Below, piece by piece: positions 37,344-47,826 of a DNA stretch of 64,000 bases. Every line of letters begins with the position of its first letter. Position 1 is the first letter of the stretch. Source of the DNA: Zhongshania aliphaticivorans. GTDB taxonomy: Bacteria; Pseudomonadota; Gammaproteobacteria; Pseudomonadales; Spongiibacteraceae. Both the position numbers and the translations under genes were made by a program. The DNA lies in assembly GCF_902705855.1 (NCBI RefSeq), contig NZ_CACSIJ010000014.1, forward strand, positions 143,519-207,518, in the 5' to 3' direction. A model generated the notes under the pieces. That model saw nothing but the letters and a program-made list of their open reading frames with translations, was not told the DNA's origin and made no database searches.

Positions 37344-37925
37344 ATGAAAAAGCAGCTTGGTTTTTTATTGTTATCAACCTTACTAGCGGCGTGCTCGCAG
37401 CTAAAAACGAGCAAGCCAATTGCGCCGACAAACCTGCTAGATACGGCGCAGGTAGAGGAAAACCTACAGATTGATGAGCCCGATGAGGTTCAAAAATTGG
37501 CCAGCAGCGCGTCTCGAGAAATGCTATTGGGTAAGTGGTACGGCATTCGTAAGTTAAAAGATGGGGGCCAGAAAGAATGGCTTACTGAGCGCTCGGCTGA
37601 TGGAACTTATCGTGTCGATTTTCGCTTCGTTTCCGCCGACGGCAGCGCTCGCTCGCAGTCGGAGGTTGGTTTTTGGGGCGTGTCTGGCGATATTTATTTC
37701 CGCATATTTCGCGGCTGGGTAACGGTTGAAGGTATGAAGCCCGCTGACCCAACGGTGGCGGAGCACTACGACGCCTACAAAATTGACGGCTTAGATGGCG
37801 AGTATTTTAGCTATGTACACAAGGTTAGAGGCCAGCAATACACCGTTAAAAAAATGCCGAATGACTTCCGTTTACCAGTCACGGTAAATAGTCAGGAAGT
37901 AGAACCCCTCACCTTTAGTTACTAA
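37344..37925 (+). CDS. Lipoprotein of unknown function
   Basis: From ATG 37344 the protein has 193 residues with lipobox LLAAC, so Cys is lipidated and the protein sits in the envelope. The mature part has a linker and then one compact beta domain of about 120 residues (LLGKWYGIRKLKDGGQKEWL, TYRVDFRFVSADGS, GFWGVSGDIYFRIFRGWV, DGLDGEYFSYVHKVRGQQY). The LGKWYG opening recalls lipocalin-like or META-type beta folds, a weak likeness only. It ends overlapping the convergent CNNM gene by four bases. Confidence 0.8.
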   Translation: MKKQLGFLLLSTLLAACSQLKTSKPIAPTNLLDTAQVEENLQIDEPDEVQKLASSASREMLLGKWYGIRKLKDGGQKEWLTERSADGTYRVDFRFVSADGSARSQSEVGFWGVSGDIYFRIFRGWVTVEGMKPADPTVAEHYDAYKIDGLDGEYFSYVHKVRGQQYTVKKMPNDFRLPVTVNSQEVEPLTFSY

Positions 37926-39010
37926 TCAGTTTTCGGCGCCTGCCACGACGTGGCGGCGCTGATTTTCTCGTCATCGAACACACCGAGTCGGCGCGCCCTC
38001 TTAGCCCATAGTTCGCGGGCCAGTGCCTGCATATCTACGGCGGTATCGGTTTCATCGACAATTTCCATGCCCAGCATGGTTTCCACCAAATCTTCCATTG
38101 TCACCAAGCCCATCACACTGCCGTATTCGTTAACAACTAGGGCAATTTGCAGGCGCATTTCGGTTAGTTTCTTGAGCAGTTCGGGTGTCGGTAGTGATTC
38201 GGGAACGACGAATAGTTCGCGACGCAAACTGCTTAGCGGTGAGTCTGGGCTGCGAGCCATGGCGAGCATTAGCTCGTCTTTGCGGATAAAGCCGGTGATA
38301 TTGTCGGGATCATCGGTGTAAACTGGGATTCTCGAGAATAAAATGGCTTCGTTGCCCTCCACTACCTCTTTAACACTGGCAGTTTCTGACACGCTAAAAA
38401 TTACCAGTCGTGGGGTCATGACATCGCGGGCCTGCAACGATCGAAATCGAATTAAGCTAGCGACTGCGCTGGATTCCTCTTGATCTAAAATGCCCTCACT
38501 GACCGCGACTTCAGCTAAGGCGACAAACTCTTCTCGGCTAATCGAGTGCGAGCCTGCGCCACGGGATAGTATGCGTGTTACAACCTGTGCCATTGCGACC
38601 AAGGGAGTCATCGACCACATGATGAAGCGCAAAATTATGGCGCACGGTGGCGATAGTTGACGCCAAAATAAGGCGCCAAGGGTTTTCGGAATGATCTCGG
38701 ATATAAATAAAATTAATAGGGTGAGTACAGCTGAAATAAGCCCGAAATAGGCTTCGCCAAACAGCGCCGTTGCCTGCGCCCCTGCTCCAGCCGCTCCCAC
38801 GGTGTGGGCGATGGTATTAAGGCTCAGAATCGCCGCTAGTGGTCTGTCGATATCTGTTTTATACCTGCGCCACAAGCGGCCATTGCGATGCCCGCGTTCT
38901 TCCTCCGCGGCAATATAAGATGGTGTAACACTAAGTAGTACCGCCTCTAAGACAGAACATAAAAAAGACACGCCTAGGGCGATGGCAACATAAATTAGCA
39001 ATAAGATCAT
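37922..39010 (-). CDS. CNNM/CBS domain membrane protein lacking the CorC domain
   Basis: The start at 39010 (MILLLIYVAIALG) gives 362 residues; a frame from 39049 adds 13 doubtful residues. The first 175 residues are the four-helix CNNM domain (LEAVLLSVTPSYIAAEEERG, PLAAILSLNTIAHTVGAAGA, FISEIIPKTLGALFWRQLSP). A CBS pair follows (DVMTPRLVIFSVSETASVKE and ALVVNEYGSVMGLVTMEDL). The transporter-associated CorC/HlyC domain usual at the end is absent. Family members are linked with magnesium or cobalt transport; function here is inferred from homology. Confidence 0.9.
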   Translation of the reverse strand: MILLLIYVAIALGVSFLCSVLEAVLLSVTPSYIAAEEERGHRNGRLWRRYKTDIDRPLAAILSLNTIAHTVGAAGAGAQATALFGEAYFGLISAVLTLLILFISEIIPKTLGALFWRQLSPPCAIILRFIMWSMTPLVAMAQVVTRILSRGAGSHSISREEFVALAEVAVSEGILDQEESSAVASLIRFRSLQARDVMTPRLVIFSVSETASVKEVVEGNEAILFSRIPVYTDDPDNITGFIRKDELMLAMARSPDSPLSSLRRELFVVPESLPTPELLKKLTEMRLQIALVVNEYGSVMGLVTMEDLVETMLGMEIVDETDTAVDMQALARELWAKRARRLGVFDDEKISAATSWQAPKTD

Positions 39011-39122
39011 GGCAGATCCGGCATTAAAGTGTATGGCAGATTGCCGCATTGCCAGCGTATAAAGTCAAGCAAAGTTGCGGGGAGGCGTCGCCTAGGGATG
39101 GCCGTATTCAACGAAAGAGTTA

Positions 39123-40883
39123 TTATATATTCCAATTCGTTGTGTCGCCCTCCTCCGGTTTTGTATTTAAGGCCAGAATTTTTTGAACGCCAAGGTGGTG
39201 GCTTAGAAATATTTCGCCATTTAGATTTTTAATAAAATTTGTTTTTAAAAGTACATCTGTTACCGGTCCTTTCACTTCTGACAAGTGCAGTTTAACGCCG
39301 CTGTCATTTAATCGATGATTAATAGATTCCAGTGTTTCTAAAGCACTAAGATCAATTTCATTCACCGCTGTGCACATTAAAATAACATGACGTATTGCAG
39401 GACTTTTTTCTAATAGCTCATAAATTCTATCTTCAATAAATCCGGCATTTGCAAAATATAAACTCTCATCTACACGCAGCGATAATATTTCGCTATGCGT
39501 AATCACCTTGTGACGATTCACATTGCGATAGTGCTCGGTGCCGGGCACTTCGCCGACCACGGCCATGTGTGGCGTGGATGTCTTATATAGATGCAAAGCA
39601 AGCGAGGCGAATACGCCGCAGGCTACGCCGCTTTCCACGCCGGCTAGCAGTGTTACTAATAAGGTCGTACTCACCGCAATAAAGTCACTGCGGGCATAGC
39701 CCCAGCTGCGTTTTAATATCGAGAAATCAACTAGCGATAGCACGGCCACAATTATCGTCGCAGCTAATGTCGCCTGAGGTAAATAAGCGAGATAGGGTGT
39801 GAAAAATAGCGCAGCAAGGCCAATGCCTATTGCGGTAAAAATACCTGCGGCGGGGGTCACGGCGCCCGCATCGAAATTAACAACTGAGCGGGCGAAGCCG
39901 CCTGTGACCGGATAGCCGCCAGAAAATGCGGCGGCAACATTGGCGGCTCCAAGCCCAATAAGCTCTTGATTTGGTATAATTTTCTGGCGTCGTTTAGCGG
40001 CGAGGGTGTGGCCCACAGAGACTGATTCGACAAAGCCGATAACAGAAATAAATATGGCGGATACCAATAATTCTCGCCATGCACTGTGGCTAAGGTTGGG
40101 TATGCTTAAGCTGGGTAAACCACTCGGTACATTGCCAACTAGCTTTACGCCATGGCTGCCAAGATCAAATGCATAGGCGGCAGCACTGGTTGCAACAATG
40201 CCTATCACTGGGCCAGTTTTTGACAGCATGGCTGCTGATTTATCACTTAATCCGGCACGTACTAACAGTGGTTTTAAGCCGCTTCGAACCCAAAATAAAA
40301 ACGCGAGTACCGGCAGGCCAACGGCCAGTGTGTAGACGTTGGTGTTAGTTATTTCATTCGCTAAGGCATGTAATAAATGGAATACATTTTCGCCAGACGC
40401 GGTAACGCCAAGTATGTGCTTTAGCTGGCTGACGGCAATGATAATTCCCGATGCGGTGATAAATCCCGCGATAACGGGATGGGATAAAAAGTTGGCTAAA
40501 AACCCCATCCGTAAAATTCCCATGCCCAATAAGAAAACACCAGAAAGTAGGGCGAGGAGTAAAGCCGCTTCAATATAGCTAACACTGCCCGGTGCAGCGA
40601 TATGGCCAATGGCTGAGGCCGTCATTAGCGAGACTACCGCGACCGGGCCTACAGACAAAGTGCGGCTGGTGCCGAAAATGGCGTAGGCGATCAGCGGTAA
40701 CATGCTGGCGTACAAGCCCATTTCTGGCGGAAGGCCAGCTAATAAAGCATAAGCGAGTGATTGCGGAATCAGCATAATGGTGACGATGACCGCTGCTAAA
40801 AGATCACTAATTAATGTGTCGCGTTGATAGTCAGCGGTCCACGTTAATATGGGGAAATATTGCTTAATTGCTGTTATTTTCAA
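39123..40883 (-). CDS. SulP family anion transporter with STAS domain
   Basis: The 586-residue product has an SLC26/SulP membrane domain of about 14 helices (PQSLAYALLAGLPPEMGLYA, GTSRTLSVGPVAVVSLMTAS, FSGGYPVTGGFARSVVNFDA) and a cytoplasmic STAS domain at about 440-560 (ILSLRVDESLYFANAGFIED, MCTAVNEIDLSALETLESIN). SulP proteins move sulfate, bicarbonate or other anions. It is the last gene of the sulfide operon, 11 bases after the SQR fusion, which suggests sulfite, thiosulfate or sulfate as cargo. The direction of transport is not given by sequence. An AGGAA site precedes the ATG. Confidence 0.94.
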   Translation of the reverse strand: MKITAIKQYFPILTWTADYQRDTLISDLLAAVIVTIMLIPQSLAYALLAGLPPEMGLYASMLPLIAYAIFGTSRTLSVGPVAVVSLMTASAIGHIAAPGSVSYIEAALLLALLSGVFLLGMGILRMGFLANFLSHPVIAGFITASGIIIAVSQLKHILGVTASGENVFHLLHALANEITNTNVYTLAVGLPVLAFLFWVRSGLKPLLVRAGLSDKSAAMLSKTGPVIGIVATSAAAYAFDLGSHGVKLVGNVPSGLPSLSIPNLSHSAWRELLVSAIFISVIGFVESVSVGHTLAAKRRQKIIPNQELIGLGAANVAAAFSGGYPVTGGFARSVVNFDAGAVTPAAGIFTAIGIGLAALFFTPYLAYLPQATLAATIIVAVLSLVDFSILKRSWGYARSDFIAVSTTLLVTLLAGVESGVACGVFASLALHLYKTSTPHMAVVGEVPGTEHYRNVNRHKVITHSEILSLRVDESLYFANAGFIEDRIYELLEKSPAIRHVILMCTAVNEIDLSALETLESINHRLNDSGVKLHLSEVKGPVTDVLLKTNFIKNLNGEIFLSHHLGVQKILALNTKPEEGDTTNWNI

Positions 40884-40894
40884 AGTCTTATTTC

Positions 40895-42562
40895 CTAGGC
40901 TTCATCGCTCATCACGGGATTTACTAACCACTCTTTGCCCTTGAGCATACCCTGCCAGTAGATCGGCGGTAGCAATTTTTCTTTTAAAAGCCACGCGGCG
41001 CGTGTTGGTTTGGTGCCATCTAATATCCATTTGGGCATGCTCGGTAAAAGCTTTCCGCCGTAACCGAATTCGGCGAGGACGATTTTGCCACGCTCTACCG
41101 TTAGTGGGCAGGAGCCATAGCCATTGTAGTGAGCAACTTGGTGAGTGCCCTTGATGTCGGCAATGATATTGGCAGCTACAATGGGTGCTTGCACTCGCGC
41201 AGCGGCGGCGGTTTTGGCATTGGGCGCATTACATACATCGCCTAGCGCCCAGATATTGTTGTAGCGCTTATGGCGGAGCGTGCATTGATCTACATCTACC
41301 CAGCCGGCGGCGTCTACCAGCGGGCTACTGCGAATAAAGTCAGGCGCGGTTTGCGGTGGGCAAACGTGAATCATATCGAATTCACGGCTCACAATTTCGG
41401 TGCTGCCGTCGGCGGCGGTGGTTTCAAAGTAGGCGGTTTTGTTGTCGCCATCGATGCGTACCAGTTTGTGGTTAAACTTTAAGTCCGCTTGGTATTTTTC
41501 GACGTATTCCATTAACGCAGGCACGTAGTCGGCCACGCCAAACAACACCGCACCGGCATTGTAAAATTCGATATTAATATTGTTTATATCTTGGTTTTTG
41601 TACCAGTGGTCGCCCGACAGATACATGGCCTTTTGCGGCGCGCCCGCGCATTTAATGGGCATTGGCGGCTGGGTAAACAGCGCGCGGCCACCTTTTAAAT
41701 TGCGAACTAATTCCCAGGTGTAGGGCGCCAGATCATAGCGGTAATTTGAGGTTACGCCGTTGCGACCTATGGTTTCGCTAAGACCTTCGATACCGTCCCA
41801 GTTGAGCTTTATACCGGCGGCAACTATCAGGCGAGTGTATTTAATAAGCCGACAGCCTTCGAGGGTAACGATGTTGCTGTCGGGGTCGAAGGCGGCAACC
41901 GCAGCCTTGATCCAGTCGGCGCCTTTGGGAATGAGTGAGGCCATTTCGCGCATGGTTTGCTCTGGCGTAAAAATGCCCGCGCCAACCAAGGTCCAGCCGG
42001 GCTGGTAATAGTGTTTTTCGGCTGGGTCAATAATGGCAATAGACAGCGCGTTGTTTCTGGCCAGCAGGCTGGCTGCGGTCGAGATGCCAGCGGCGCCACC
42101 ACCAACAATAACCACATCGTAACTTCGCAGCGTGTCTATTTCGCCACTCTTGCCGGCAATACGGGCGGCCACGCCGCTCATGTCGTAGCCCGCGGCTTTG
42201 GCGGCGGCAACAATCTCTGTGAGCGGAAGTTGCTTGGCCTGGCTCAGTGCCCACAGGGTGGTAGAGCGCATGCCGCTGCGGCAGTAGGCGTGAAAGGGGC
42301 CGTTCTGTTTGAGTAGTAACTCGCCAAAGGCGGCGGCTTCTGCATCGCCAACTTTGCCGGTGATAACCGGCAGATAATGGCATTGTATGCCGTGCTCAGT
42401 GGCAGCCTTTTCTATTTCAGTAAATAGCGGTTGGTCTGCGCCTTCGCCGTCGGGTCTATTGCAAATTAGGGTGCGCACGCCGCGTTTTGCTAGCTCGCTA
42501 ATATCGCTGGGCAGTATTTGTTCAGAGACACTTAAGTTGGCATTCAATTCTTTAATGTTCAT
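40895..42562 (-). CDS. Fusion of TIGR01244-type phosphatase/sulfurtransferase domain and sulfide:quinone oxidoreductase
   Basis: A 555-residue two-domain protein. Residues 1-115 are the phosphatase-like TIGR01244 domain with the loop HAYCRSGMRS (Cys94, Arg99); it is also found fused to persulfide dioxygenase as Blh. Residues about 148-555 are a type II, human-like SQR: FAD motif VVIVGGGAAGI at 150-160, first catalytic Cys305 in MPIKCAGAPQK, second Cys485 in YGSCPLTVERG, and HYYQPGWTLVGAG. SQR oxidises sulfide to persulfide and passes electrons to quinone. The N-terminal domain may transfer sulfane sulfur to a thiol acceptor. Located between the dioxygenase and SulP genes. Confidence 0.93.
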   Translation of the reverse strand: MNIKELNANLSVSEQILPSDISELAKRGVRTLICNRPDGEGADQPLFTEIEKAATEHGIQCHYLPVITGKVGDAEAAAFGELLLKQNGPFHAYCRSGMRSTTLWALSQAKQLPLTEIVAAAKAAGYDMSGVAARIAGKSGEIDTLRSYDVVIVGGGAAGISTAASLLARNNALSIAIIDPAEKHYYQPGWTLVGAGIFTPEQTMREMASLIPKGADWIKAAVAAFDPDSNIVTLEGCRLIKYTRLIVAAGIKLNWDGIEGLSETIGRNGVTSNYRYDLAPYTWELVRNLKGGRALFTQPPMPIKCAGAPQKAMYLSGDHWYKNQDINNINIEFYNAGAVLFGVADYVPALMEYVEKYQADLKFNHKLVRIDGDNKTAYFETTAADGSTEIVSREFDMIHVCPPQTAPDFIRSSPLVDAAGWVDVDQCTLRHKRYNNIWALGDVCNAPNAKTAAAARVQAPIVAANIIADIKGTHQVAHYNGYGSCPLTVERGKIVLAEFGYGGKLLPSMPKWILDGTKPTRAAWLLKEKLLPPIYWQGMLKGKEWLVNPVMSDEA

Positions 42563-42597
42563 CGTAACTCCCTAATTTGGCCGGTTGTACTGGTGGT

Positions 42598-43491
42598 TTA
42601 AAGTAGGTTCAGCGGCAATTTCAGGTAGACCACATCATTGGTGTCAGCCTTGGGCAAATGACCGGCGCGCATATTCACCTGCAGCGATGGCAGGATCAGC
42701 TTGGGCATGCCTAGGGTCGCGTCACGCTTTTCGCGCATGGCAACAAAATCACTTTCGCTCACACCTTGGTGAACGTGAATATTGTTGTCGCGCTCTTGTT
42801 TTACGGTGGTTTGGTATTCAACGTCGCGGCCATTGGGCATGTAGTCGTGGCACATGAATAGGCGCAGCTCGTCGGGCAAGCTCAGAATACGTTGAATGGA
42901 GCGATATAAAATTTTGGCGTCGCCACCGGGAAAGTCGGCTCGGGCGCTGCCGCCGTCGGGCATAAACAAGGTGTCGCCGACAAAGGCCGCGTCGCCCATG
43001 ATGTGGGTCATGCAGGCCGGGGTATGGCCGGGGGTGTGCAGGGCGTGGCAGCGCATTTCTCCCACCAGATATTCATCACCGTCTTTAAATAGTTGATCAA
43101 ACTGGGTGCCGTCGCGGCAGAAGTCGCTGCCTTCGTTGAAAATTTTGCCAAAGGTGTTTTGTACTGTGGTGATCTCGGCGCCAATGCCAATTTTGCCACC
43201 CAGTTTTTCTTGAATATAGGGTGCGGCAGAGAGGTGGTCGGCGTGTACATGGGTTTCGATAATCCATTGCAGTTCTAGGTTTTGACTGCGGATATAGTCA
43301 ATCACTTTATCTGCGCCATTCAGGCTGAGTCGGCCTGCGGCGTAGTCGATCTCCATTACTGAGTCCACTACCGCGCAGGCATTGGAGGCGGGATCCTTTA
43401 CCACATAAGTAAATGTGTTAGTTGGTTCGTCAAAAAACGCGATCACTTCAGGGTTAGTGTTCATATCGGTTTTAAAGGGCAATGTCGTCAT
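42598..43491 (-). CDS. Persulfide dioxygenase-type metallo-beta-lactamase
   Basis: The 297-residue protein has the metal motif ETHVHADHLSAAPY (His81, His83, Asp85, His86) and later histidines CHALHTPGHTPACM and LFMCHDYMPNGR, plus EKLGGKIGIGAEI. This pattern marks the ETHE1/PDO group with one iron, which oxidises glutathione persulfide to sulfite. It lies 35 bases before the SQR gene and 21 bases after cydB. Distinction between PDO type and the Blh hydrolase type rests on the neighbourhood; both would act on SQR product. Confidence 0.93.
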   Translation of the reverse strand: MTTLPFKTDMNTNPEVIAFFDEPTNTFTYVVKDPASNACAVVDSVMEIDYAAGRLSLNGADKVIDYIRSQNLELQWIIETHVHADHLSAAPYIQEKLGGKIGIGAEITTVQNTFGKIFNEGSDFCRDGTQFDQLFKDGDEYLVGEMRCHALHTPGHTPACMTHIMGDAAFVGDTLFMPDGGSARADFPGGDAKILYRSIQRILSLPDELRLFMCHDYMPNGRDVEYQTTVKQERDNNIHVHQGVSESDFVAMREKRDATLGMPKLILPSLQVNMRAGHLPKADTNDVVYLKLPLNLL

Positions 43492-43512
43492 TTTTAAAAC
43501 TCCTTCTTAAAC

Positions 43513-44505
43513 TTATTCATAAGACAGTGCGGTGGCTTTGCCATGAAATATTCGGTAGACAAAATAGGTGTAAAACAAAATCACGGGCAGGGTGATCACC
43601 ACGCCCACTAAGGTAAATTGCAGAGACTTCACCGACGCGGCAGATTCCCAAATAGTTAGGCCGCCAATAATAATGTCGGGGAATAAGCTGTAGGCCAGTC
43701 CTAGGCTTGCCATCAGACAGATCGCGACGGTGCAGGCATAAATCAAGTAGCTACGATTTTTATCGAGCATGGTGGGTTTGTTTAGCGCCGCCACAATGAG
43801 GCCGTAGCAAAATAGGCAAATCATCGGAATGGGCATTAAGTACAGCGCATTGGGTAGGGTGAACCATTTCTCGGCAATCGTGCTGCTTACCAGCGGGGTG
43901 GCAATAGACACCATAAACAGCCCTAGCCCCATCGGCCAAATTGCCATGCGCGCCCAGCCGATGGCTTTGTTGCGCAGTTCGCCGTCGGTTTTCATTAACA
44001 GCCAGCCGCAGCCTAATATAAGGTAGAGGGCAGGTAGGGTCATCGCGATAAGAGCGGAAAATAGTAGGCTGGTGGCGCTGGAATGCAGGCCGGTGATATA
44101 GGCTCCAAGCATCCAACCCTGCGCTAATGAGGCGATTAAGGAGCCGGCAAAAAAGGCTTTATTCCACAGGCCGCGGCGGTGATCGCCGGCTTTTACCCGT
44201 AAATCAAAGGCCACGCCGCGCAGAATTAAACCCATCAGCATGATAGTGACCGGCAAATATAGGCTGGTGAGAATAATACCGTGGGCGACGGGAAAGGCGA
44301 TCAGTAGTACGCCAATACCGAGGACAATCCAAGTTTCGTTGGCGTCCCAGAAGGGGCCAATAGAGGCGATCATCATGTCTTTTTCGGCCTCGTTTGCCAG
44401 TGGTACTAACATGCCAACACCGAGGTCGTAGCCGTCGAGAATCACATAGATCAATAAGGCCAGACCCATAATGCCCATATAAATAATTGGTAGCCAATAT
44501 TCCAT
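43513..44505 (-). CDS. cydB: Cytochrome bd-type quinol oxidase subunit II (CIO type)
   Basis: A 330-residue membrane protein with eight to nine helices. It starts MEYWLPIIYMGIMGLALLIY and contains LDGYDLGVGML, ANETWIVLGIGVLLIAFPVA, LILRGVAFDLRVKAGDHRRG and the end VILFYTYFVYRIFHGKATAL, all typical of CydB/CioB. It pairs with the cydA gene three bases upstream. bd oxidases of the CIO group resist sulfide and cyanide, which explains their place in a sulfide operon. Confidence 0.96.
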   Translation of the reverse strand: MEYWLPIIYMGIMGLALLIYVILDGYDLGVGMLVPLANEAEKDMMIASIGPFWDANETWIVLGIGVLLIAFPVAHGIILTSLYLPVTIMLMGLILRGVAFDLRVKAGDHRRGLWNKAFFAGSLIASLAQGWMLGAYITGLHSSATSLLFSALIAMTLPALYLILGCGWLLMKTDGELRNKAIGWARMAIWPMGLGLFMVSIATPLVSSTIAEKWFTLPNALYLMPIPMICLFCYGLIVAALNKPTMLDKNRSYLIYACTVAICLMASLGLAYSLFPDIIIGGLTIWESAASVKSLQFTLVGVVITLPVILFYTYFVYRIFHGKATALSYE

Positions 44506-44508
44506 TGC

Positions 44509-45861
44509 TTAGACCTCTTTGTTAACGGTTTGGGGTGCACTGACGGCCGTTAGCTTAAGTGATGCAGCGGGTTTGCGTGACAGGTTAAGTAGGGCGCCGA
44601 TATAGGAGGCCAGCAGAAATCCATAGAGCAATATATAGCCAATTAAGGTTCCGCCCACGGTGGCGCTGCTGTGGTCGGCGACTACGTCTTGCACTTTAAG
44701 TACGCCGGTGACAATCCAAGGCTGACGGCCAATCTCGGTGACATACCAGCCTGCTAAAACCGCGATCCAGCCTGAGAAGGTCATGGCTGAGAGGGCGTAT
44801 AGCAGCGGTTTTGTAGGGGTGTTTTTGCCTCGTAACTGCCAGGCCGCCCACCACGACACTAGTAGCATAAGGCCACCCACCGCTAGCATTACGCGGAAAG
44901 ACCAAAACACCATGGCAACCGGTGGGTGTTCGCCCTCAAATTCATTGAGACCTTTTACTTCACCCATTGGGTCGTGGGTGAGAATAAAGCTCGCCGCGTA
45001 GGGCACTTCAATGGCGTAGCGGTTGGTTTTGCTTTCTTCGTCGGGCAGCGCAAATAGCGTAAAGGCCGCGCCTTTCTCGGTTTCCCATACCGCTTCCATC
45101 GCTGCAATTTTGGCGGGCTGATGTTCTAAGGTGTTCAAACCGTGAAAGTCGCCAACCAGTATTTGAATAGGGGCCAGCACGGCGGCCATCATCACACCGG
45201 TTTTCATTACCTTCCACGTAGCGGGGCCGTCGACATTGCGCAGCGCCCGCCAGGCGCTAACACCGGCAATCACAAAGGCAGAGGTCAATAGGCAAGCTAT
45301 GAGCATATGGAAAAAGCGGTAGGGGAAGGAGGGGTTGAAGATCACTTCCATCCAGCTGTCGACCATGACCACGCCGTTTTCCAGATAGTAGCCGGTGGGG
45401 GTTTGCATCCATGAGTTAAGGCTGAGAATCCAGAACGCCGACAAAGTGGTGCCAAAGGCTACCAAGAAGGAGCTGATTAAATGCATACGGTTAGAGACGC
45501 GGTCTTTACCGAATAACATAATGCCGAGAAAAGAGGCTTCGAGGAAAAACGCGCTTAGGACTTCGTAACCCAGTAGCGGTCCCGCCACATTGCCAGCTTT
45601 TTCCATAAAGCCCGGCCAGTTGGTGCCGAATTGAAAGCTCATGGTAATGCCCGATACCACCCCCATGGCAAAGGTGAGGGCAAAGATTTTTACCCAAAAT
45701 TGGTAGGCGTATTCCCACGCTTGATCGCCGGTTTGGGTGAAGCGCAGCCGAAAGAACAGCAGAATCCAGCCGAGGCCTATAGATATGGCCGGAAACAGGA
45801 TGTGGAAGCTTATATTGGTCGCAAATTGGATGCGGGCCAAAATGAAGGGGTCGAAATCCAT
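44509..45861 (-). CDS. cydA: Cytochrome bd-type quinol oxidase subunit I (CIO type, short Q-loop)
   Basis: The start at 45861 fits an AGG nine bases upstream; an ATG at 45870 abuts it and is rejected. The 450-residue subunit starts MDFDPFILARIQFATNISFH, has haem ligands in helices 1 and 5 by homology, GKDRVSNRMHLISSFLVAFG and GRQPWIVTGVLKVQD. The quinol loop is short, as in the cyanide-insensitive (CIO) group. It would oxidise quinol with oxygen and sustain respiration in the presence of sulfide. It is the first gene of the operon and is preceded by a sigma-54 promoter. Confidence 0.96.
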   Translation of the reverse strand: MDFDPFILARIQFATNISFHILFPAISIGLGWILLFFRLRFTQTGDQAWEYAYQFWVKIFALTFAMGVVSGITMSFQFGTNWPGFMEKAGNVAGPLLGYEVLSAFFLEASFLGIMLFGKDRVSNRMHLISSFLVAFGTTLSAFWILSLNSWMQTPTGYYLENGVVMVDSWMEVIFNPSFPYRFFHMLIACLLTSAFVIAGVSAWRALRNVDGPATWKVMKTGVMMAAVLAPIQILVGDFHGLNTLEHQPAKIAAMEAVWETEKGAAFTLFALPDEESKTNRYAIEVPYAASFILTHDPMGEVKGLNEFEGEHPPVAMVFWSFRVMLAVGGLMLLVSWWAAWQLRGKNTPTKPLLYALSAMTFSGWIAVLAGWYVTEIGRQPWIVTGVLKVQDVVADHSSATVGGTLIGYILLYGFLLASYIGALLNLSRKPAASLKLTAVSAPQTVNKEV

Positions 45862-45951
45862 ATTGATCATCCTAGTGAGAGCTGCGCTACTGTTTTTGAA
45901 TCTTCATCCGGTGGCTGTCGCAAGTTTCGCCAATGGCACTTACTACCATAG

Positions 45952-45967
45952 AGCAATGCACATGCCA
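45952..45967 (-). promoter_or_regulatory. Sigma-54 promoter of the sulfide-oxidation operon
   Basis: Read on the minus strand the sequence is TGGCAT-GTGCA-TTGCT, an almost exact match to the -24/-12 consensus TGGCAC-N5-TTGC(A/T). Transcription would start near 45941, about 80 bases before cydA. The divergent gene encodes a sigma-54-dependent activator, which strengthens the call. A 15-bp dyad, ACATGC-CAT-GCATGT (45960-45974), overlaps the -24 element. Confidence 0.85.
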
Positions 45968-46005
45968 TGCATGTAATACTTGTGGCTATACACATTAAGT
46001 CATTG

Positions 46006-46029
46006 GTTTATATATAGTATTTTATAAAC
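46006..46029. promoter_or_regulatory. Dyad GTTTATA-N10-TATAAAC, candidate activator site
   Basis: Perfect 7-bp arms lie at 46006-46012 and 46023-46029, between cydA and the regulator gene. They are centred about 76 bases upstream of the expected cydA start point, a workable position for a sigma-54 enhancer site. AT-rich sequence makes chance occurrence possible; use by FisR is inferred. Confidence 0.45.
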
Positions 46030-46115
46030 ACAATGCGCTTCGCTTGCGTTGTGCTGGTAAAGTTGCTGCCGAATTGTCATTATTGGCAAAAATAAATGAC
46101 AGAAATGACAATACC

Positions 46116-47417
46116 ATGCAGCTTATCGCCAAAGATTCAGACAAAGACGTTGCCTATATGCTCGATGGCTTCGATTACCCTGCCATATTGGTGTCGGCTG
46201 ACTACCGAATATTGGCAACGAATGAGCTATACCGTTCAACCTTTGGCGAAATTGATGTCGATAAGGGCGCGCGTTGCTATCAAGTCTCCCACGGCTACCA
46301 AGTGCCTTGTGACCAAGCCGGTGAAAGCTGCCCGCTGGCGGCCTGTAAAAGCTCCGGCAATAAAGAGCGCGTGCTGCACATTCATAGCACGCCACGGGGC
46401 AAGGAGTATGTCGACGTTGAAATGCTGCCCATCCGTGGCGACGACGGTGAGCTAAAGTACTTTGTAGAAATTCTTAAGCCCGTTCATATTGCCAGCGCTG
46501 AATTGAGCACACAGACGATGGTTGGCCGCAGTCCCGCATTTAATACCCTAGTTGAAATGATTAATTTGGTGGCGAAAAGAGATACCTCGGTATTGCTGAT
46601 GGGGGAATCTGGCACTGGTAAAGAGTTGGCCGCAAAAGCGATTCATGATGCGAGCAGTCGCAGCAGTCGACCTTTGGTGACGGTTGAGTGCGCGGGCCTC
46701 ACCGAAACCCTGTTTGAAAGTGAGCTATTCGGCCACGTTAAGGGAGCGTTTACCGGCGCGACATCAAATAAACGCGGCTTGTTGGAAACAGCGGAAGGCG
46801 GCACGCTATTTCTAGATGAAATTGGCGACGTATCAATGGGTATGCAGGTTAAATTATTGCGCTTGATTGAAACCGGCACGTATCGAACCGTGGGCAGTAC
46901 TGAACTTAAGCGGGCGCAATTTAGATTAATTTGCGCCACCCATAAAAATTTATCTGCCTGTGTTGCCAGTGGCGAATTCCGTGAAGACCTTTATTATCGA
47001 ATAAATGCCTTTCCGATAGTGCTTCCACCTTTGCGAGAGCGCGGTGAAGATATTTCTCTTATCGCTAAATCTATATTGGAAAAATTCAGTAAAAAAGATA
47101 TGTATCACCTTACTGAGTCGGCGATTAAAGTGCTAGAAAAAAGCTATTTTGAGGGCAATGTTAGGGAGCTTCGCAATGTTTTAGAGCGCGCAATAATTTT
47201 TGCACATTCAAATATTATTGATGTAAAAATATTAGAGCGTTGTATGTTAGATGTTAGTCCGCGAAATGATGAAAAAAAAGAACGTTGGGAAAATTTAAAA
47301 ACAAAAGAGCTACACTATTTGAATGAGCTATTAATTTATTGCGATGGCGATAAAGCTAAAGCGGCAGATATTGCAGGTATTAGTTTGCGGTCACTCTATA
47401 GAAAACTCGGCACCTAG
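46116..47417 (+). CDS. fisR: FisR-type sigma-54-dependent activator with sulfane-sulfur-sensing cysteines
   Basis: The ATG at 46116 ([11 protein letters not shown]) gives 433 residues. The N-terminal PAS-like domain carries Cys54, Cys65, Cys72 and Cys77. The first three have exactly the spacing of the polysulfide-sensing cysteines reported for Cupriavidus FisR (53, 64, 71). The AAA+ domain has [19 protein letters not shown], the sigma-54 loop GAFTGA in [14 protein letters not shown] and [13 protein letters not shown]; the end is a Fis helix-turn-helix ([20 protein letters not shown]). It is divergent from the sulfide operon, which has a sigma-54 promoter. It should activate that operon when sulfane sulfur builds up. 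ORF parts before 46116 are not translated. Confidence 0.9.
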
Positions 47418-47419
47418 TT

Positions 47420-47737
47420 ATGAATACGATGCTAAATGACACATGGTACTGCTGCAATCTTGGCGATGCGATGTTAGCTGCTCCCGCCTTGGATGGTATC
47501 GAGGCGCAGGTCTTAACGGCCTTGGCTAATGATGTAAATGCTGATGGGTGCGCGGTGTATTATCGCCATGAGTCCGAAGGACGTTTGCACTGCGATCTAG
47601 TGGTGTATTTTTCTCCGCAAGCAGGGCGTATGCCAATAGAGGTGAAGCTGCGAGCTTGTGCTAAACCCGACAAACAGGGTTTAAGTTTACTTGTTGGTGA
47701 AGCTTCTTCTTGGGCGATTTTCTTTCCTGAGGCTTAG
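47420..47737 (+). CDS. Small protein of unknown function after fisR
   Basis: A 105-residue protein, starting two bases after the fisR stop (MNTMLNDTWYCCNLGDAMLA). It contains five cysteines, including a CC pair near the start, a likely alpha/beta fold (ALDGIEAQVLTALANDVNAD, LHCDLVVYFSPQAGRM) and no signal peptide. I do not recognise the family. Position directly behind the regulator and the cysteines suggest a link with sulfur sensing, but this is a guess. Confidence 0.7.
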   Translation: MNTMLNDTWYCCNLGDAMLAAPALDGIEAQVLTALANDVNADGCAVYYRHESEGRLHCDLVVYFSPQAGRMPIEVKLRACAKPDKQGLSLLVGEASSWAIFFPEA

Positions 47738-47826
47738 CTAGCGGCGGGCTTATATTCCGCTCGACATTGACCATATTAAAAGCCGCTGTCTATACTCAGG
47801 TTTCAATTCCCATTAAGCGTAAAATC

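Follow-up and report, generated by a model that had tools for sequence, protein, structure and literature searches.

Gene content of the FisR-cydAB locus

We analyzed a 64,000-nucleotide stretch of Zhongshania aliphaticivorans DNA (contig NZ_CACSIJ010000014.1; this whole stretch is called the window, and its host genome is 3.95 Mb), in which five minus-strand genes running from 45870 down to 39123—cydA, cydB, a persulfide dioxygenase (PDO) gene, a gene for a sulfurtransferase-SQR fusion (ST-SQR), and sulP—lie opposite a plus-strand gene for a FisR-type activator (Table 1). Intergenic gaps calculated from the open reading frame (ORF) coordinates are 3, 21, 35, and 11 nt in cydA-to-sulP order, and all six ORFs match the expected families in Pfam and NCBIfam profiles, confirming the layout of closely spaced genes and the gene identities given in a preliminary description of this DNA. 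Based on the evidence below, we consider it likely that this locus is a FisR/sigma-54 sulfide-response operon whose first two genes encode the organism's only bd quinol oxidase, and which serves tolerance and protected respiration.

The regulator contains a sigma-54 domain (PF00158, 219 bits), an AAA lid, an HTH_8 domain, and a weak PAS_4 match (profile search). We took its start as the ATG at 46116 rather than the TTG at 46044 found in the automatic ORF list, since orthologues align from there and the palindrome described below would otherwise lie inside coding DNA. Of 33 rows requested for an alignment, four from Acinetobacter scored under the limit and stayed unaligned; Cys54, Cys65, and Cys72 were invariant in all 29 aligned proteins, from Zhongshania to the Cupriavidus and Pseudomonas loci, and the GAFTGA loop was present in 28, with GSFTGA in the remaining one. 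Cupriavidus FisR senses via three conserved cysteines (review, PMC9774590; published work is cited throughout from the accessible parts of the papers), and the alignment suggests that Cys54, Cys65, and Cys72 are their counterparts here. The window genome also encodes sigma-54 and glutathione synthetase.

For CydA, residues His23, His188, Met328, Glu103, Glu111, Lys254, Glu259, and the GRQPW motif align with E. coli CydA, and we take them to have the haem and quinol roles of their E. coli equivalents. The long Q-loop insertion found in E. coli CydA is missing here; a short Q-loop is common to many bd oxidases. The label "CIO-type" from the preliminary description was dropped as unproven, the reference for the Q-loop comparison being E. 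coli CydA, and we refer to the enzyme as a short Q-loop bd oxidase. It is the sole PF01654 match in the window genome, beside two haem-copper oxidase matches.

The PDO scores 378 bits against the Blh model NF040641 over model positions 135-423, short of the 625 that this model requires for a whole protein, as the N-terminal half of Blh is absent; its closest solved chains are 9g8t and 4ysk, and an HVHADH motif lies at residue 81. Within the fusion protein, residues 3-133 form a DUF442/TIGR01244 sulfurtransferase (solved relative 2f46) whose loop residues C94 and R99 are invariant in 16 genus sequences and carry the same numbering as in the Cupriavidus domain, while residues 146-542 match mitochondrial SQOR chains (phmmer, E 1e-96). 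Cys305 and Cys485, likewise invariant in the 16 genus sequences, align with the mitochondrial SQOR cysteines and are presumably the redox pair. With both the PTP-like Cys94/Arg99 loop and an SQOR-type cysteine pair, the protein has the features of a C. pinatubonensis-type DUF442-SQR fusion, a class in which sulfane sulfur transfer has been shown for the DUF442 domain of the C. pinatubonensis SQR (PMC6441731, PMC8533005).

Table 1 Features of the locus, in window coordinates
Feature	Coordinates	Strand	Description
fisR	46116..47417	+	Sigma-54-dependent activator, 433 aa; N-terminal sensor Cys54/Cys65/Cys72 (putative), GAFTGA loop, Fis-type helix-turn-helix
Palindrome TTGCCAATAATGACAA	46074..46089	.	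Proposed FisR upstream activating sequence
Sigma-54 promoter -24/-12 (predicted) TGGCATGTGCATTGCT	45967-45952	-	5' of cydA; consensus match
cydA	44509..45870	-	Cytochrome bd oxidase subunit I, short Q-loop, 453 aa; PF01654 540 bits
cydB	43513..44505	-	Cytochrome bd oxidase subunit II; PF02322 264 bits
PDO	42598..43491	-	Persulfide dioxygenase, metallo-beta-lactamase fold; Lactamase_B; C-terminal half of Blh
Sulfurtransferase domain of SQR fusion	42158..42562	-	N-terminal, DUF442/PF04273; loop CRSGMR with Cys94 and Arg99
SQR domain of fusion	40895..42127	-	Mitochondrial SQOR type; Cys305 and Cys485
Sulfurtransferase-SQR, whole ORF	40895-42562	-	PF04273 86 bits, Pyr_redox_2 51 bits, TIGR01244 125 bits
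SulP	39123..40883	-	SLC26/SulP anion transporter with STAS; PF00916 350 bits, TIGR00815 440 bits

Promoter architecture and its conservation

A strict -24/-12 element occurs only once in the 64 kb, both strands considered, before cydA, in agreement with the sigma-54 promoter that had earlier been assumed for the operon, and a palindrome starts 122 bp upstream of its -24 element. Across the genus the palindrome recurs as the type TTGYCAN4TGRCA. Besides the window, all 13 intact genus loci carry a looser sigma-54 pattern before cydA, as do two loci lacking SQR and one lacking FisR, and the palindrome is present in ten of the 13, eight of which have it 120-123 bp away from the -24 element and two at 131-132 bp (L032 and L033; L numbers denote loci and G numbers genomes). 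In the two loci without SQR the distance is 121-122 bp. Another repeat near 46040, CACAATGCG...GCGTTGTG, was considered as the FisR site and dropped because it was absent by eye upstream in eight relatives, while TTGYCAN4TGRCA recurs.

We then searched whole genomes for a strict composite of palindrome plus sigma-54 element, covering 18 genus genomes and 293 genomes of the order, two sets that share genus genomes. Ten of the 18 genus genomes had the composite, with one match each, and all ten matches lay between fisR and cydA. The order-wide scan returned nine matches—two in G096 and G253 and the other seven in genus genomes of the first scan—every one of them just before cydA. Both scans together thus place the composite in 12 of 300 genomes, with 12 matches, all at cydA, and a reversed control pattern gave no match in either scan. 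Since none of the scanned genomes contained a second strict copy (weaker sites would escape the pattern), this operon may be the sole target of the strict form. Scans of positions 37900-47800 for sigma-70-like sites (12 vs. 12.4) and for terminators (12 vs. 11.8) found no excess over shuffled sequence.

An activator with three cysteines and a GAFTGA loop, a sigma-54 consensus site, and genes for PDO and SQR are the hallmarks of a FisR-controlled sulfide-oxidation operon, and all are found at this locus. Together with the invariance of the putative sensor cysteines and the near-fixed palindrome spacing in most genus loci, they bear out the FisR control proposed in the preliminary description.

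Outside the genus the architecture is looser. The palindrome is present in six of nine rows in which cydAB come first (L042, L043, and L123-L129, where L042 and L123 are one contig, counted once), with spacings in five loci of 120-121 bp (L043, L123, L124), 113 bp (L125), and 146 bp (L128). Three loci at which cydAB stand separately (L139, L140, L142) have at best weak sigma-54-like sites and no palindrome. Of eight FisR loci where cydAB do not come first (L063, L067, L091, L130-L132, L138, L141), five carry the looser sigma-54 pattern upstream of PDO, and three (L131, L138, L141) carry the palindrome there, without the genus spacing; among ten alphaproteobacterial PDO upstream regions, two had weak sigma-54-like matches and none had the palindrome.

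We also observed a second PDO-STSQR-SulP copy in G007 (L038:8230-12625), with a relaxed FisR-type palindrome and a sigma-54 site at 121 bp spacing. No FisR was found in the 19.9 kb around it, and G007 carries one FisR (E 1e-100), of which this copy is probably a target in trans.

Conservation and linkage of the gene set

Within the genus, 14 of 18 genomes carry FisR, cydA, cydB, PDO, STSQR, and SulP in the window order, more than chance would give, and cydAB lie inside the operon in 17. The co-occurrence of cydAB, PDO, SQR, and SulP beside fisR that the preliminary description had proposed to look for is therefore found in most of the genus, and also in other families of the order. SulP follows ST-SQR in those relatives that possess SulP. 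In the order search (E 1e-60), CydA gave exactly one match in every one of the 11 genus genomes that had it.

Several observations weigh against a uniformly conserved, FisR-controlled unit. On the promoter side, three intact genus loci (L029, L035, L037) have no TTGYCAN4TGRCA-type palindrome, the spacing in L032 and L033 is about 10 bp longer, and the strict composite is absent from eight of the 18 genus genomes (G007, G010, G011, G014, G015, and G018, with intact gene sets, as well as G019 and G020) and present in just two of ten FisR-cydAB loci outside the genus (L123-L132). As to gene content, G004 and G006 keep the same gene order, including FisR, cydAB, PDO, and SulP, but without SQR, and G019 has cydAB-PDO-sulfurtransferase-SulP without SQR and without a FisR detectable at E 1e-100; a search of these three genomes with the fusion protein detected no SQR elsewhere at E 0.001. 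G020 has PDO, STSQR, SulP, and, 4 kb away, FisR, and is the one genus genome in which CydA was not found (E 1e-60). The absence of SQR from the former three and of CydA from the latter indicates that parts of the unit are separable. Finally, in three of the 14 intact sets (G013, G015, and G018) a stretch of 0.6 to 2.9 kb with a CsoR-family gene, and in G015 with ModA-like and alginate-export-like genes as well, separates cydB from PDO, PDO is preceded by FisR-like palindromes in L034 and L036, and L032 and L033 have a cydB-PDO gap of about 0.4 kb. Given these wide gaps, the CsoR-family gene, and the palindromes before PDO, a single transcript is doubtful in those relatives.

The CsoR-family genes (PF02583; L034:7592-7873, L035:5412-5747, L036:11975-12304) encode two conserved cysteines with no histidine shortly before the second, a pattern that we take to be reminiscent of the persulfide repressor CstR; if CstR-like, the gene would bring a second sulfur sensor into the operon. 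In G020, TonB-receptor-like and PepSY-like genes (named by eye; L031:12096-15663) lie between PDO and fisR, at the place that cydAB occupy in relatives.

The interrupted loci bear on an explanation in which cydAB are controlled separately and sit here by chance or for oxygen-related reasons, with only PDO-SQR-SulP responding to sulfide. Such an arrangement would fit the CsoR-family gene and the 0.6 to 2.9 kb between cydB and PDO in three relatives, the FisR-like palindromes before PDO in two of those three, and the location of cydAB elsewhere in other genomes (L139, L140, L142). The window, however, has its only strict sigma-54 site and its palindrome before cydA and not before PDO, the strict composites of relatives are all before cydA, cydB and PDO are 21 nt apart in the window, sigma-70-like sites are no commoner than in shuffles, and the linkage recurs in several families. 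We therefore regard separate control as decidedly improbable, and FisR control of a unit that includes cydAB as the better account of the window.

To place the unit in a broader context, we examined ST-SQR loci of named genomes, using the best 80 of 585 confirmed relatives and counting loci that end at contig ends as they stand. Among these 80, PDO is present in 69, SulP in 66, FisR in 16, and CydA in 13; the first two counts identify PDO-STSQR-SulP as a common module. The closest ST-SQR in this set, at 95% identity, comes from a Zhongshania metagenome-assembled genome (L040). Named and unnamed locus sets are not fully independent, as L040 and L024 sit on contigs matching in length (64298) and range, and so do L042 and L123 (196913).

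Across the order, SQR (fused or not) was detected at E 1e-100 in 100 of 293 genomes, at least 68 of which also have a listed CydA. Based on 136 of the 161 CydA-positive genomes and among the CydA matches listed, CydA and SQR lie within 15 kb of each other in 22 of 68 genomes; outside the genus they are adjacent in 13 of 59, compared with about 0.5 expected under random placement in 4 Mb, relatives not being independent. The arrangements outside the genus vary: cydAB come first in seven loci (L123-L129, with no SulP match in L126 and L128) and last in five (L130-L134, with no FisR in L133 and L134), and SQR-cydAB in L135 is accompanied by neither a PDO nor a SulP match. A Roseomonas locus and six Rhodobacterales-like loci have cydAB at a distance of 1 to 5 kb and oppositely oriented; in L053 they directly precede STSQR, in two Pseudomonas they follow fisR, and in the genomes of L139, L140, and L142 they are elsewhere. 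We also observed a peroxiredoxin-like gene (named by eye) between fisR and cydA in G176, where it is the first gene of the unit (L126:11809-12471).

A CydA tree of 65 rows (64 different; some long branches unsure) requires at least four changes for the cydAB-first arrangement and at least three for cydAB-last. Most Rhodobacterales, Pseudomonas, and f20/f6 CydA fall in other lineages of this tree, with the FisR-linked Pseudomonas CydA on a very long branch away from the window CydA. The coupling of cydAB to FisR and SQR thus seems to have arisen repeatedly in different CydA lineages; its recurrence supports a functional coupling, and gain, loss, and transfer are all compatible with the pattern. 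We see about an even chance that in this genus the sole bd oxidase has come under persulfide control, with FisR and sigma-54 turning on the sulfide-proof oxidase and the sulfide-oxidising enzymes from a single promoter, that the unit is a transferable device for respiring through sulfide, a coupling reached several times with different CydA lineages, and that where SQR was lost the rest acts as a persulfide-tolerance and safe-respiration unit.

The fusion itself also varies among relatives. Sulfurtransferase and SQR appear as separate matches, as a joined alignment with in-frame stops, or as SQR alone in L133, L134, L127, G075, G159, and G296, suggesting that fusion and fission have both probably occurred.

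Proposed role and relation to known systems

By analogy with characterised relatives, we propose that persulfide formed from sulfide would modify the three FisR sensor cysteines, and that FisR on the palindrome would activate sigma-54 RNA polymerase at the -24/-12 element, turning on cydAB, PDO, ST-SQR, and SulP together, presumably as one transcript. SQR would oxidise sulfide and reduce quinone, the fused sulfurtransferase domain would pass sulfane sulfur to glutathione or sulfite, and PDO would convert persulfide to sulfite. SulP would probably carry sulfite, thiosulfate, or sulfate across the membrane, and probably outward, since it occupies the place of TauE in the Acinetobacter operon described below; the exporter role is read from gene position, a further point that counts against this scheme. 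CydAB would re-oxidise quinol, both from SQR and from ordinary metabolism, while sulfide inhibits the haem-copper oxidases. In published accounts, bd oxidases are insensitive to sulfide (PMC4815019) and CIO is the only sulfide-insensitive oxidase of P. aeruginosa, a resistance that the window enzyme may share. The operon's main role would then be to confer tolerance to sulfide and persulfide while protecting respiration, and any energy gained from sulfide would be a by-product.

The preliminary description had gone further, proposing a whole route of sulfide oxidation and respiration, a pathway with a good foundation but in part overstated. Its gene identities, FisR control, and cydAB-first order stand, while the "sulfide-respiring" part is weakened by the three genus genomes of 18 in which SQR is missing. 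Energy-conserving sulfide respiration as the main role, a lithotrophic supplement in which sulfide electrons pass through SQR, quinone, and CydAB to oxygen, would account for the shared operon of SQR and quinol oxidase in 14 of 18 genus genomes and for both enzymes acting on quinone. Against this stand G004 and G006, which lack SQR yet keep FisR, cydAB, PDO, and SulP; the operon, as the region searched, contains no sulfite-oxidising enzyme; and bd oxidases are described as lacking proton pumping, making them a poor choice for energy yield. We consider this role unlikely. SQR is not retained wherever the rest is, being absent from G004, G006, and G019, and because all three keep cydAB, PDO, and SulP, tolerance is favoured over dedicated sulfide respiration. 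Judging by these losses, tolerance and protected respiration matter at least as much for the unit as respiration driven by sulfide.

Tolerance could in principle be directed at another poison, with the rhodanese domain and bd oxidase guarding against cyanide or mixed poisons and the sulfide genes being secondary. Published thiosulfate:cyanide activity of DUF442 domains (PMC8533005, PMC5823870) and the lower cyanide sensitivity of bd oxidases (PMC4815019) would fit such a function. The FisR sensor cysteines, however, match those of Cupriavidus-type proteins, and rhodanese activity with cyanide is generic. Moreover, PDO and SQR are not known to take part in cyanide removal, and we judge this explanation to be very improbable, with sulfide and persulfide tolerance remaining the preferred role.

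Comparison with known systems indicates which parts are familiar. SQR-PDO pairs under FisR were already regarded as known in the preliminary description, and a FisR-activated PDO/SQR operon has indeed been published for A. baumannii (PMC7315123). This FisR-PDO1-SQR-TauE operon (A1S_1707-1711) resembles the window in its divergent FisR, predicted sigma-54 promoter, PDO, and SQR, but its transporter is TauE instead of SulP and cydAB are at a separate locus (A1S_1433-1434), from which sulfide raises their transcription (PMC7315123). Four other Acinetobacter loci (L089, L100, L101, L105) carry the same SQR fusion beside FisR, but with PDOs just 29-34% identical to that of the window. Cupriavidus pinatubonensis JMP134 likewise has a DUF442-SQR fusion and a FisR in which three cysteines are conserved (PMC9774590, PMC6441731, PMC8533005); the Cupriavidus relative L119, which we compared in place of JMP134 itself, shares FisR-PDO-STSQR but has no CydA or SulP match within 21.7 kb. 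In the mto clusters of Methylophaga thiooxydans, pdo, sqrB, and sulP occur together, but alongside methanethiol oxidase genes, and the terms "cytochrome bd" and "Fis family" are absent from the main text of the paper (PMC6548844). The Blh/bigR operon of Xylella and Agrobacterium uses the same DUF442 sulfurtransferase and ETHE1-type dioxygenase blocks (PMC5823870). There, however, the sulfurtransferase is fused to the dioxygenase rather than to SQR, the regulator is the repressor BigR instead of FisR, and the transporter is TauE-related.

The bd oxidases have mostly been discussed as oxygen-, redox-, or stress-regulated genes; their sulfide resistance and, in some bacteria, sulfide induction are already known. 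The preliminary description had named the terminal oxidase and SulP as the less-described parts of such an operon. For the oxidase this agrees with the parts of the accessible literature that we examined (which leave subscription papers, including the original FisR paper, outside their scope), where we found no description of cydAB inside a FisR/SQR/PDO operon. SulP does not qualify as new, being common with ST-SQR (66 of the best 80 of 585 loci) and published with pdo and sqrB for Methylophaga (PMC6548844), and neither does the SQR fusion, already characterised in Cupriavidus (PMC6441731, PMC8533005). Each part is therefore known, and it is the joining of cydAB to the FisR switch in one probable gene set that is little described. 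This genome structure puts the bd oxidase directly behind a putative persulfide sensor, on a transcript probably shared with the enzymes that would load quinone with sulfide electrons, giving a clear prediction that is cheap to test and a candidate FisR site motif for searches. With natural variants that have lost SQR, cydAB, or FisR, detoxification can be told apart from respiration driven by sulfide. The finding is less startling than logical, and the promoter motif, repeated linkage, and loss variants make the proposal directly testable.

Two neighboring genes were also noted. An ORF of 105 aa at 47420-47737, 2 nt past the fisR stop, has no Pfam or NCBIfam match and is 58-73% similar in L025, L026, and L028. 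On the other side, a gene for a CBS/HlyC-like membrane protein (37922-39049; named by reading the sequence) lies 73 nt beyond the end of sulP, and the scan reported no terminator-like site on the minus strand in between. We kept this gene out of the unit since it was not found after sulP in other genus loci; it does follow sulP in five close relatives (L025-L029), and in the window it may be co-transcribed with sulP.

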